NCBI GenBank assembly: GCA_028291405.1
Contig: JAQGID010000258.1
Span: forward strand, 1 to 34,382
Reading direction: 5' to 3'
From: Rhodospirillales bacterium
GTDB lineage: Bacteria > Pseudomonadota > Alphaproteobacteria > ATCC43930 > CGMCC-115725
Length of the DNA: 34,382 nt
Below the pieces are notes generated by a model that ran no database searches, was not told the origin of the DNA, and worked only from the letters and a program-made list of their open reading frames with translations. The position numbers and the translations under genes are program-made. Shown here one piece after another: positions 13,360 through 17,847 of the stretch (position 1 is its first letter; each line of letters opens with the position of its first letter).

Positions 13360-14163
13360 ATGGAGATTCTGCGGGAAGGCTCCTCCGGCGGCGACGTCAC
13401 GGCGCTCCAGCTGCAACTCCGCGCGCAGGGCTTTCCACCCGGTGCGATCGACGGGAACTTCGGCCCGGGGACGACGGCGGCCGTCGTGGCCTTTCAGCGG
13501 AGCGAGGGCCTCGTGTCGGACGGAGTCGTCGGCGTCCGGACGGCGCAGGCGCTGGGCGTTGCCGCTGCCGATCTGCCGCCGCCACCGGCCATGCCGAATG
13601 TCACGGTCGCGGTCGTCGCCAAGATGTTTCCGGTGACTCCCTTGGGCCACATCAATGCCAATCTCCCGCACGTCCTCGCCGCGCTGGTCGCCGCCGACCT
13701 CACGGCAGTGCCGATCGTGCTGGCGGCGCTGGCGACGATCCGAGCCGAGACCGAGGGGTTCCTGCCGATCAGCGAAGGTCTCTCGCGCTTCAACTCCAGC
13801 CCCGGCGGGCATCCCTTCGACCTCTATGACAATCGCAAGGATCTCGGCAACAAGGGGCCGCCCGACGGCGACAGCTTCAAGGGGCGCGGCTTCGTGCAGC
13901 TCACCGGCCGGGCCAACTATGCGAAGTTCGGCCCGCTCGTCGGCGTCGAGAATCTGGTTGATGCGCCCGATCAGGCGAACGATCCCGACGTCGCCGCCCG
14001 GCTGCTCGCCGCCTTCATCGATGCGAAAAAGGCGGCACTCGCGACAGCGCTTGCCGGCGGCGATCTCGCCGCTGCCCGTCGCCTGGTGAACGGCGGCAGC
14101 AATGGACTGGACCGGTTCACCTCGGCCTATCAAATCGGCGCCGGCCTGCTCGCGATAGCCTGA
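13360..14163 (+). CDS. Peptidoglycan-binding, GH19-like lysozyme/chitinase-fold protein
   Basis: A 267-residue protein. Residues 1-67 are a PG_binding_1 domain (EGSSGGDVTALQLQL, IDGNFGPGTTAAVVAFQ, DGVVG). A proline linker lies at about 70-80. A GH19-like lysozyme domain follows, with IRAETEGFLPI carrying the putative catalytic Glu and the substrate-groove motif FKGRGFVQLTGRANY. It should cleave peptidoglycan or chitin-like glycans. It has no signal peptide or membrane helix, so export or release would need another route, as in phage endolysins. It is the first of three genes in close succession with the membrane protein and the phosphoesterase. The SD is strong. It may be of phage origin, but no other phage genes are present. 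Confidence 0.85.
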   Translation: MEILREGSSGGDVTALQLQLRAQGFPPGAIDGNFGPGTTAAVVAFQRSEGLVSDGVVGVRTAQALGVAAADLPPPPAMPNVTVAVVAKMFPVTPLGHINANLPHVLAALVAADLTAVPIVLAALATIRAETEGFLPISEGLSRFNSSPGGHPFDLYDNRKDLGNKGPPDGDSFKGRGFVQLTGRANYAKFGPLVGVENLVDAPDQANDPDVAARLLAAFIDAKKAALATALAGGDLAAARRLVNGGSNGLDRFTSAYQIGAGLLAIA

Positions 14164-14210
14164 GCTCGATCAGGCACGCGGGACGCAGCCTCTATGGGAG
14201 GACCAGAGCG

Positions 14211-15470
14211 ATGAGCAGCAGAAAACTTCTTTGCGTCGCGGCATTCGCATTCCTCGCCGGCGGCTGGACGCAAGGGATCGCGACCGCGCAGACGACTGCA
14301 ACGCAGGATTCGTCTCAAGCAGCCGCCAAGCCGGCGACCGACAAGTTCATCGTGGGACTGAGCGGCATCGACGATCGCAATCAGCTCACCGGCGATCCGA
14401 CCAAGGATCAGGTCCCGACGCTCAAGATGAGCGACCGGCTCGCGATCGTTCTCGACGGCGCCATCCCGGAAAAGTTCGATGCCAGCAAGGCCGTGCTGTT
14501 TCTCAACGGCCACAAGATCACCGATTTGAAAGATTCCGCATGGCTCCCAGCATTGCACGCCTTGGTTTTCCGCCTTTCGCGCGACTCCGACAACGCCGCG
14601 GCGTGGAACCCGGTGTTGGGCTCGCCGAGCTTCGAGCCGCGCACGATTGCGGCCGGGCTGTCGCTCGACAATTTGCCGGCGTCGCCTTTGATCGCGCGCA
14701 AGGACGGCACCTTGCCGATCCTCAAGCTCGCCCTCATCCCGACGGGTTGGCTGTTCGCGGCGATCGGCGCAGTGCTGTTAGTATTAGCGGTGGTTTGGGC
14801 GGCGGCCTCGAAGACCACTATTCTGAAGGACAGCCTGCTGCCGCAGCTCCCACCGAGGGAGCAGCCCTTCAGCCTGGGGCGGTCGCAGATGGCCTTCTGG
14901 TTCACGGTCATCTTCGCCGTCTACGTTTTTCTCTTCGTTCTCTTGTGGGATTACAACACGCTGACGACCCAGTCCCTCGTCCTGATGGGGCTGTCCGGGG
15001 CTACGGCGATCTTCGCGGTTGCGATCGATGCGTCGAAGGAGACGCCGATCGGCGCGGCCAACGACAAGCTCCGGGCGATCGGTCTCAATACTTATGATGA
15101 TGTGCTTCGACTGAGGCAGCAGATCGCCGACCTACAGGCCGAGCTGACGGCCGTGCCTGCCCCGACTCCCAGCCGGATCCTGGTCCTCCAGACGCAGATC
15201 GCCGATCTTCAAAACAAGTTGCGGGCGTGGCGCGATATCACTCGGCCGTTCGTCTCGACCGGCTGGTATCGCGATCTCACGACCGACGTCAACGGGCCGG
15301 CGCTGCACCGGCTGCAAATGGTCGTGTGGACGGTGACGCTCGGCGTCGTCCTTCTCATCGAGGTCTATCGCAATCTGTCATTGCCGGAGTTCAGCGCCAC
15401 GCTGCTGGGAGTCATGGGAATCACGAGCGCCGGCTATCTCGGCTTCAAGTACCCGGAAAAGCAGAGCTGA
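14211..15470 (+). CDS. Unidentified five-helix membrane protein with periplasmic beta domain and coiled coil
   Basis: A 419-residue protein not recognised as a named family. The signal peptide is at about 1-27. A soluble, probably periplasmic domain at about 43-165 contains GLSGIDDRNQLTG and VLFLNGHKITDLKD. TM1 is at about 173-198. Two helical hairpins follow, at about 224-272 and 366-411. They share the pattern (G/H)R.QM..W at the entry and a LMGLSGAT / VMGITSAG segment in the second helix, so the unit looks duplicated. Between them is a coiled coil (about 284-340) with two near-copies of QIADLQ. It lies 47 bp after the lysozyme gene and 21 bp before the phosphoesterase gene. Its role is unknown; a sensor or scaffold for the flanking hydrolases is conceivable. 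Confidence 0.75.
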   Translation: MSSRKLLCVAAFAFLAGGWTQGIATAQTTATQDSSQAAAKPATDKFIVGLSGIDDRNQLTGDPTKDQVPTLKMSDRLAIVLDGAIPEKFDASKAVLFLNGHKITDLKDSAWLPALHALVFRLSRDSDNAAAWNPVLGSPSFEPRTIAAGLSLDNLPASPLIARKDGTLPILKLALIPTGWLFAAIGAVLLVLAVVWAAASKTTILKDSLLPQLPPREQPFSLGRSQMAFWFTVIFAVYVFLFVLLWDYNTLTTQSLVLMGLSGATAIFAVAIDASKETPIGAANDKLRAIGLNTYDDVLRLRQQIADLQAELTAVPAPTPSRILVLQTQIADLQNKLRAWRDITRPFVSTGWYRDLTTDVNGPALHRLQMVVWTVTLGVVLLIEVYRNLSLPEFSATLLGVMGITSAGYLGFKYPEKQS

Positions 15471-15491
15471 GAGCGTCCGGCGGAGAGCGAC

Positions 15492-16931
15492 ATGGCGGCA
15501 ATCGACGAGATCGAGCACGTCATCGTCCTGATGCTGGAGAACCGCTCGTTCGACTGCATGCTGGGCAAGCTCTATCCCGCCGGACCGTCCTATGCCGGGC
15601 TCACCGACAAGGAGACCAATCCGTTCCAGCGCTCCGACGGCATCGTCGCGCTGCCGGTGTGGTCGAGCTCGGGAATGGATCCGCTGACGGCGACGACGCC
15701 CGATCCCGATCCGGGCGAGGTGTTCGTCGACATGAACGAGCAGCTGTTCGGCACGGGCACCCCGCGGAGCAATACGCGGCCGTCGATGACCGGCTTCGTC
15801 GCGAATTTCATGAGCCAGCCGCCGACCGAACAGCCGGCCGACCCGATGGCGGTCATGCATTACTTCACGCCCGATCAGCTGCCGGTGCTCAGCACTTTGG
15901 CGAAGGCGTTCGGCGTCTGCGATCAGTGGCACGCCTCGGCGCCGTGCCAGACTTGGCCGAACCGCTTCTTCGCCCATTCCGGCACGGCGCTCGGGCACGT
16001 CGACAACACGGACTTCCCGATTCCCTTTCCGGCGCCCAGCATCTTCGGTCGCCTGTCCGATTGCGATCGCTCCTGGCGGGTCTATTTTCACGACGTGCCG
16101 CAGTCGATCATGCTGAGCGACGTCTGGTGCCGCGCGCTTCTGCATTACCGCTTCTTCGGCCAGTTTCTCGCCGATGCACAATGCGGCGCGCTGCCGAGCT
16201 ACAGCTTCATCGAGCCGCGTTATTTCGCGGATTTCACGCTGGGCATCCCGAACGACCAGCATCCGCCGCACAATGTCGCGGTCGGCGAGAAGCTGATCGC
16301 CGACGTCTACAACGCGGTGCGCAGCTCGCCCAACTGGAAGAAGAGCCTCCTGGTCATCACCTACGATGAGCACGGCGGCTGCTACGATCACGTGCCGCCG
16401 CCGCTCGCAGTGTCGCCGGACGGGTTGGGACCGAGTGGCTTTCCGTTCGACGCCTACGGCGTGCGGGTTCCCGCTGTCATCGTGTCGCCCTACATGCCGC
16501 CGGGCAGCATCGTCCGCTCGGCGCCGGCCGGCACCGCCTTCGGCGCGCCGCCTTATCCGTTTGACCACACCTCCATCATCGCCACGCTCCGTAAGCTTTT
16601 CAACCTGGGCAGCCCACTGACCCGTCGCGATGCCGTCGCCCCGGACCTGCTCGGACCCTTGAGCCTGCTCGCGCCCAGCAACGACGGGCCCACGAGCGTC
16701 TCTCCCGCCGCCCCGTTCGTCGAGCCGGAGGTCGTCCGTGCGTTGGGCTACAAGGCACAGAATTTCAACCAGGACGCGCTGTCGCGCATGGCGAAGCAGC
16801 TTCCGCCGGCGCCGCCCGACCCAGGGGTCGGGGTTCCCGCGGCGCAGCCGCTTGCGGCCGGCCGCGATGCTCCGGTCGGTGCCGCCGGGATCGATGCCGT
16901 GATGCGGGTCAAATCATTCCTCGGGGTCTGA
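15492..16931 (+). CDS. Phospholipase C / acid phosphatase-like phosphoesterase family protein
   Basis: A 479-residue member of the phosphoesterase superfamily (PLC/AcpA type). The motifs in order are MLENRSFD (14-21, metal and nucleophile region), PNRFFAHSG (156-164), IEPRY (240-244), NDQHPPHNV (254-262), TYDEHGGCYDHVPPP (290-304) and FDHTSII (357-363). It should hydrolyse phosphodiesters or phosphomonoesters, perhaps phospholipids. The catalytic domain starts at residue 8, with no signal peptide, unlike the classical Tat-exported PlcH/PlcC enzymes. The C-terminus (about 400-479) is Pro/Ala-rich. The SD ggagag precedes ATG 15492. It is the third gene of the cassette, 21 bp after the membrane protein. 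Confidence 0.88.
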   Translation: MAAIDEIEHVIVLMLENRSFDCMLGKLYPAGPSYAGLTDKETNPFQRSDGIVALPVWSSSGMDPLTATTPDPDPGEVFVDMNEQLFGTGTPRSNTRPSMTGFVANFMSQPPTEQPADPMAVMHYFTPDQLPVLSTLAKAFGVCDQWHASAPCQTWPNRFFAHSGTALGHVDNTDFPIPFPAPSIFGRLSDCDRSWRVYFHDVPQSIMLSDVWCRALLHYRFFGQFLADAQCGALPSYSFIEPRYFADFTLGIPNDQHPPHNVAVGEKLIADVYNAVRSSPNWKKSLLVITYDEHGGCYDHVPPPLAVSPDGLGPSGFPFDAYGVRVPAVIVSPYMPPGSIVRSAPAGTAFGAPPYPFDHTSIIATLRKLFNLGSPLTRRDAVAPDLLGPLSLLAPSNDGPTSVSPAAPFVEPEVVRALGYKAQNFNQDALSRMAKQLPPAPPDPGVGVPAAQPLAAGRDAPVGAAGIDAVMRVKSFLGV

Positions 16932-16995: not shown

Positions 16996-17847
16996 ATGGC
17001 ACCGCGGGCGTATTGGAAGGGTTGGCTGAAGGTCGCGGCGATCTCATGCCCGGTCCGGCTCTACGCCGCGACCACCAGCGCCAACCGCATCTCCTTCCAC
17101 GAGATCAATCGCGATACCGGCCACCGCATCAATCTTCGGCCCCATGAGTCCGTGACCGGCGACGAGCTGTCGCGCGACCAGCTCGTCAAGGGCTACGAGT
17201 TCGAGAAGGGGCAATACCTGCTGGTCGACGACGACGAGCTCGATGAGTTGCACGTCACCCCGACCAAGACGATCGAGATCGAGCAGTTCGTGCCGCTCGC
17301 CAAGCTCGACCGCATCTATCTCGAAAAACCCTATTACCTGGCGCCCGACGGCGCGGTCGCCGAGCAGAGCTATGCCGTCATCCGCGAGGCGATGGCGCGC
17401 AACGGAACGGCGGCGCTCGGCCACGTCGTGCTGAGCCGGAACGAACGCGCCGTCGCGCTCTCGCCGCGCGACAAGGGGATGCTGCTGTCGACGCTGCGGC
17501 CGCCGATCGACATGCGTGCCGAAGCGGACCTCTTCTCGGAGATCGGCCGAGGCAAGCTCGACCCGGAGATGGTCGATCTCGCCGGGCTGATCATGGACCG
17601 TCGCGCCGGTCATTTCGATCCCGAAACATTCGAGGACAGCTGGCAGGTCGCCCTGCGCGGCGTCGTCGAGGCCAAGATCAAGGGCGAGAAGCCGAAGGCG
17701 CCCGCCGCGCGCAAGCCGGCGAAGGTCATCGACCTCAAGGATGCGCTGAAGCGCGCTCTCGAGGCGGAAGGCGGCGGCAAGGCGGCGCCCGCGCGGGGGG
17801 GCAAGCCGCATCGCGGCGCTGCGTCGCCGCGTCGCCGCGCGGGCTAG
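16996..17847 (+). CDS. ku: Ku protein for non-homologous end joining
   Basis: A 283-residue bacterial Ku. The N-terminus WKGWLKVAAISCPVRLYAAT, then ISFHEI and the HRINLRP and KGYEF segments, are diagnostic. The core continues to the ALSPRDKGMLLSTL block and a basic Lys/Ala/Arg-rich tail (about 235-283), as in other Ku proteins. As a homodimer, it rings DNA ends and recruits LigD. No ligD is visible in this window. It has its own EcfG-type promoter, so induction by general stress is likely even though it follows the phosphoesterase by only 64 bp. Its stop TAG overlaps the opposite-strand DUF72 stop by two bases. Confidence 0.95.
   Translation: MAPRAYWKGWLKVAAISCPVRLYAATTSANRISFHEINRDTGHRINLRPHESVTGDELSRDQLVKGYEFEKGQYLLVDDDELDELHVTPTKTIEIEQFVPLAKLDRIYLEKPYYLAPDGAVAEQSYAVIREAMARNGTAALGHVVLSRNERAVALSPRDKGMLLSTLRPPIDMRAEADLFSEIGRGKLDPEMVDLAGLIMDRRAGHFDPETFEDSWQVALRGVVEAKIKGEKPKAPAARKPAKVIDLKDALKRALEAEGGGKAAPARGGKPHRGAASPRRRAG

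Follow-up and report, generated by a model that had tools for sequence, protein, structure and literature searches.

A membrane protein of an unnamed bacterial family recurs beside unrelated wall- and lipid-active enzymes that lack export leaders, which suggests a bacterial counterpart of the lysis cassettes of phages. The protein (henceforth MP) is encoded in a three-gene cluster of a soil alphaproteobacterium, together with a wall-cutting enzyme and a lipid-cutting enzyme. Tentatively, and with somewhat less than even confidence, we read this cluster as an envelope-hydrolase cassette in which MP would be the constant part, bringing leaderless cytoplasmic hydrolases to their envelope substrates in a holin-like role.

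The cluster was found in a stretch of 34,382 nucleotides (henceforth the window), where its three open reading frames (ORFs) all lie on the forward strand and are separated by gaps of 47 bp and 21 bp, as a preliminary description of this DNA had stated (Table 1). Within ORF1, Pfam detected a PG_binding_1 domain (6.9e-17) and a GH19 domain below the cut-off (0.0033), and the protein matched the endolysin family phrog_181 in PHROG (5.6e-32) and the structure of the SPN1S endolysin (4ok7; 7.6e-12). The catalytic glutamates of GH19 endolysins are spaced E-x8-E, as are residues E130 and E139, from which we infer, at the level of a motif, that they are the catalytic pair; with its lysozyme-type domain and two glutamates assigned as catalytic by this spacing, ORF1 classifies as a GH19 endolysin. 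ORF3 was matched by the full-length PF04185 phosphoesterase profile (residues 7-372; 4e-72), and its closest solved structure is the plant non-specific phospholipase C NPC4 (8hav; 1e-67). While it thus belongs with the NPC/AcpA-type phospholipases C, it differs from them in being leaderless and in adjoining MP. Neither ORF1 nor ORF3 has an export signal at its N-terminus, as judged by inspection and by a simple hydrophobicity window over residues 1-45 (i.e., not by a signal-peptide predictor), and neither has an upstream in-frame start able to add a leader. Both enzymes are therefore what the preliminary description had taken them to be, namely a peptidoglycan-binding GH19-like lysozyme and a PLC/AcpA-like phosphoesterase, each without an export signal. 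Past the phospholipase gene, a Ku (NHEJ) gene begins after 64 bp (window positions 16996-17847), and a DUF72 gene converges on it.

Table 1 Features of the three-gene cluster (positions in the window)
Feature	Positions	Strand	Basis
ORF1, leaderless peptidoglycan hydrolase	13360-14163	+	Pfam, PHROG, structure match
ORF1, PG_binding_1 domain	13384-13554	+	Pfam
ORF1, GH19-type endolysin-like domain	about 13642-14139	+	phrog_181, 4ok7
ORF2 (MP), 419-aa membrane protein, unnamed family	14211-15470	+	no family match; relatives; models
MP, signal-peptide-like N-terminus	14211-14288	+	sequence
MP, Ig-like beta domain, predicted periplasmic	14340-14738	+	model; modest fold match
MP, TM1	14742-14813	+	model
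MP, TM2-TM3 hairpin, first SLGRxQMxxW unit of internal duplication	14874-15035	+	model, duplication test
MP, helical coiled-coil segment, predicted cytoplasmic	15045-15251	+	model
MP, TM4-TM5 hairpin, second unit (LHRLQMxxWT...MGIT..YLGFK)	15303-15446	+	model, duplication test
ORF3, leaderless phospholipase C, PF04185 / NPC4 type	15492-16931	+	Pfam, structure match

An endolysin-type enzyme adjoining a membrane protein could be the remnant of a prophage lysis cassette. We consider this highly improbable, however, as 50,697 phage records and the IMG/VR viral contigs yielded no MP at the sensitivity used, neither MP nor the phospholipase matched a PHROG, and the neighbouring genes in the window (RF3 upstream, Ku and DUF72) are chromosomal. 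With no phage genes around the cluster and no MP relative found in these phage records or viral contigs, a prophage or viral origin was rejected; the preliminary description, too, had seen no phage structural genes.

MP itself scored above the cut-off for none of the families in Pfam, NCBIfam or PHROG. An AF2 model based on an alignment of 60 sequences (pLDDT 87.6, pTM 0.82) predicts, in this order, a signal-peptide-like start, an Ig-like domain (residues 44-176), TM1, a hairpin, a coiled coil and a second hairpin, with the transmembrane (TM) helices at residues 178-201, 222-245, 253-275, 365-388 and 396-412; this agrees with the unfamiliar five-helix membrane protein with a periplasmic domain and coiled coil that had been described from the sequence. 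The match of residues 44-176 to Rel-type Ig domains is modest (VIA Z 7.3, rmsd 3.2, 101 residues aligned). The two hairpins form an internal duplication, each opening with S-L-x-R-x-Q-M-x-x-W (median shuffle z 6.8 in 64 sequences), and across 60 sequences only seven positions never vary (S221, L222, Q226, W230, G260, R367 and Q369). Searching with the whole fold returned Ig-like matches for residues 44-176 only and nothing above background for the core. When modelled alone (pLDDT 91.6), the core had no Foldseek match in the PDB under E 0.001 and a VIA Z of at most 6.8, with no convincing relative among solved structures. Neither profiles (Pfam, NCBIfam, PHROG) nor fold searches linked MP to holins, and a literature search returned reviews of T10SS and holins and no paper on the MP family.

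Scanning GTDB contigs with MP as a single protein returned nothing, and an alignment-based profile scan returned 80 loci in Pseudomonadota, Acidobacteriota, Verrucomicrobiota, Bacteroidota and others. At E 1e-10, a threshold at which distant members may be missed, MP was found in 10 of 398 random Pseudomonadota genomes (counting that of the window) and in 16 of 247 Bacteroidota genomes (counting the seed genome). The family is sparse but wide in its distribution across bacterial phyla. Relatives on plasmids came from one Rhizobium and one Polymorphobacter. On the conjugative megaplasmid pRlX4 of Rhizobium ruizarguesonis (L009), a 682-aa relative with a long coiled coil lies near M23, DUF2272+SH3 and M15+GH19 genes, and one Bacteroidota locus (L145:4831-9548) encodes two members of the MP family on the same strand, with two further genes separating them.

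We then compared the neighbours of MP, using a simple codon-usage gene caller in the fetched loci (starts are approximate) and naming neighbours without a Pfam call by reading their sequences (e.g., the 3D-domain-like lipoprotein of L113, or DnaJ/TerB-like proteins). A PF04185 phospholipase gene lies directly downstream of MP in four of the five loci whose MPs are nearest to that of the window (L018, L020, L021 and L022, the last being genome G001; not L019). In G001, which is of the same genus, the MP and phospholipase genes overlap and GH19 is missing, while in G025, of the same family, a PF04185 lipoprotein adjoins MP; the adjacency is kept at 42-48% MP identity. In the window's own clade, then, the phospholipase is the conserved partner of MP and GH19 is a local addition. 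Further afield, MP has a GH24 lysozyme directly upstream (L054, L060, L071 and L073), PG_binding + VanY directly downstream (L076, L088 and L093), Amidase_2 upstream (L036), PG_binding and then LCAT downstream (L085), or PG_binding x2 upstream (L038), and other neighbours include a GH75 chitosanase (L040) and a subtilase (L065). Among the 80 loci, at least 14 have a gene for a peptidoglycan hydrolase, PG_binding protein or PF04185 enzyme directly adjacent to MP on the same strand. By contrast, in the Azospirillum clade (L043-L056, L075 and L097) a divergent MP occupies a conserved place between DnaJ/TerB-like and ABC-F genes, with no hydrolase.

Several other neighbours were recorded in these loci. 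In Mucilaginibacter (L076:9978-11654), a contractile phage-tail sheath protein (PF17482/PF04984) is encoded two genes past MP and is followed by a patatin-like gene; a link to a tail-like particle is possible there. Proteins of 125-132 aa and of ~350-420 aa recur beside MP in Bacteroidota (L081, L084, L145 and L155), and a family of 109-aa helical proteins near MP is common to Scalindua (L026:5555-5881) and Chthoniobacterales (L034:4495-4821).

Having formed the hypothesis on the discovery set, we turned to random Pseudomonadota and Bacteroidota genomes and a class sample, which yielded 26 new MP loci. A peptidoglycan hydrolase is directly adjacent to MP in six of them, with five enzyme types represented (GH24 in L108, GH19 in L109, M15_3 in L120, M15/VanY in L141, GH108 in L150 and Amidase_2 in L151). 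Lipases or esterases also adjoin MP (Tle1-like in L108 and L114, a patatin in L149, an alpha/beta hydrolase in L146) or lie two genes away (L141), and L108 repeats the window's order of lysozyme, MP and phospholipase (here Tle1-like) with enzymes unrelated to those of the window. By the same hydrophobicity window and inspection by eye, nearly all hydrolases partnering MP are leaderless. The remaining 17 loci have no adjacent peptidoglycan hydrolase or lipase/esterase; L144 has a papain-family peptidase, leaving 16 of the 26 without any.

Given that most loci of the random sample have other neighbours, the adjacency could be due to chance or housekeeping, with each gene serving a separate function. 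We regard this as very unlikely, since six adjacencies in 26 loci have P of about 2e-5 on the assumption that peptidoglycan hydrolases make up 1% of genes (7e-4 at 2%), and since the adjacency of MP and phospholipase is conserved across the divergence given above. Matches to PG_binding_1 are few in most carriers (the genome of the window, 6.5 Mb in size, has two, of which one lies beside MP), and 0.03 adjacencies with MP would be expected over 20 genomes, compared with several seen, a figure to be taken as a guide given that the genomes were partly picked for adjacency. In a Pfam tally, this domain occurred in 6 of 90 near genes and in at most 1 of 120 far genes. In the MP tree (a quick one with many weak forks), the different partner enzyme types occupy distinct clades, meaning that the pairing arose repeatedly. 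As many homologues lack hydrolase neighbours, the link is strong but not obligate. The preliminary description had seen no recognised parallel to the cluster, a statement that the search overturned, and had looked to repeated co-occurrence with GH19 and PLC genes for support; for enzymes of the GH19 and PLC types we found this, in the random samples too; homologues without hydrolases, which it had named as evidence against a link, do exist (in Azospirillum and in the 16 loci above), yet the pairing recurs elsewhere.

It is also conceivable that a contact-dependent T6SS-like system uses the hydrolases as antibacterial effectors, with MP as an immunity or adaptor protein. Leaderless enzyme families overlap between the two (PF09994 Tle1-like lipases, M15, GH24 and amidase effectors), and VipB was found in the window's genome (two genes, G000:C222), in G001, G025 and G427, and in the L018 genome. 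However, no delivery genes lie near the MP cluster, consistent with the earlier remark that no T6SS island is visible, and VipB is absent from G207 and G292, both of which are 100% complete and carry MP-hydrolase pairs. It is likewise absent from L020, L021, L054, L060, L036 and Bacteroidota carriers, where absence weighs little as these are mostly MAGs of unstated completeness. A single immunity family facing GH24, GH19, M15, amidase, PLC and Tle1 enzymes would, moreover, be implausible. Because complete carriers lack VipB, a T6SS is not the general answer; we rejected an effector module as a general explanation, though VipB is present in the window's genome, and judge this account improbable.

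A T10SS combines a holin, an endolysin, spanins and a secreted cargo in one cluster (e.g., with ChiW, ChiY and ChiZ), and the mycobacteriophage lysis cassette includes a lipolytic enzyme, LysB. Published passages present ChiWXYZ of Serratia, YenTc release and Salmonella ChiA as T10SS (PMC5778951, PMC10847048, PMC10109510), and LysA, LysB and holin of mycobacteriophages as a phage holin-endolysin cassette (PMC6116114). Passages on both systems convey a pattern in which the membrane protein stays constant while the leaderless enzymes around it can be exchanged (PMC9527704, PMC5778951, PMC10847048), and because the MP loci show this pattern we take MP to be holin-like in role, not in kinship. Like a holin gene, MP lies beside a leaderless endolysin gene in the window and in several other loci, and it has no match above the cut-off to a holin family in Pfam, NCBIfam or PHROG. 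The cluster resembles a T10SS, which releases enzymes, in that both are bacterial and non-phage and pair a membrane protein with a peptidoglycan hydrolase devoid of a leader (of the M15 type in ChiX). It differs in that MP, at 419 aa and with its signal peptide, Ig-like domain, coiled coil and five TM helices, is not a small holin, that a phospholipase is part of the window's cassette, and that no spanin-like gene was found within the cluster or among the flanking genes examined. With phage cassettes, including those of mycobacteriophages, it shares a peptidoglycan hydrolase, a membrane protein and a lipolytic enzyme, the enzymes being interchangeable around the membrane protein; it differs in having no phage context, and neither sequence nor fold searches tied MP to any holin.

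From the observed gene order, domains, lack of leaders, MP architecture and recurrent pairing with unrelated peptidoglycan hydrolases and lipases, a mechanism can be proposed. The three genes would be co-transcribed, and MP would pass or gate the leaderless hydrolases from the cytoplasm, where they are made, toward the envelope, as a holin does for endolysins. The GH19 enzyme would then cut the wall, while the phospholipase may attack phospholipid of the inner or outer membrane or may itself be released cargo, and the outcome would be lysis or secretion on a signal. This develops the preliminary proposal, in which the set would serve self-lysis, release or contact-dependent envelope attack and MP would sense or gate; our results, taken as a whole, partly support that proposal through the recurrent pairing. 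Against a holin-like role, about two thirds of the random-sample loci have no directly adjacent hydrolase, and some neighbours (papain, subtilase, chitosanase) are enzymes that do not lyse the producer's own envelope. The main rival is a sensing or anchoring role, in which the Ig-like domain reads the envelope and the coiled coil recruits hydrolases for local remodelling of wall and membrane, export taking another route. The modelled topology, which puts the signal peptide and Ig-like domain on the outer side and the coiled coil in the cytoplasm, would suit such a role, as would the homologues without hydrolase neighbours, but it leaves unexplained why partners of unrelated families are nearly all leaderless, and we find it rather unlikely.

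A more doubtful proposition is that the holin-like reading extends to a new class of proteins, found across phyla, that translocate or gate unrelated leaderless envelope hydrolases and lipases at the membrane (i.e., a non-phage lysis or secretion system with an Ig-domain, five-TM protein in place of a holin). How leaderless enzymes are released, or lysis is deliberately brought about, in bacteria without phages is an open question in most phyla. Given the parallels with T10SS and phage cassettes, the question of MP is testable in a laboratory strain, and a named, conserved membrane protein that accompanies leaderless hydrolases of many unrelated kinds would offer a way into enzyme release and lysis.
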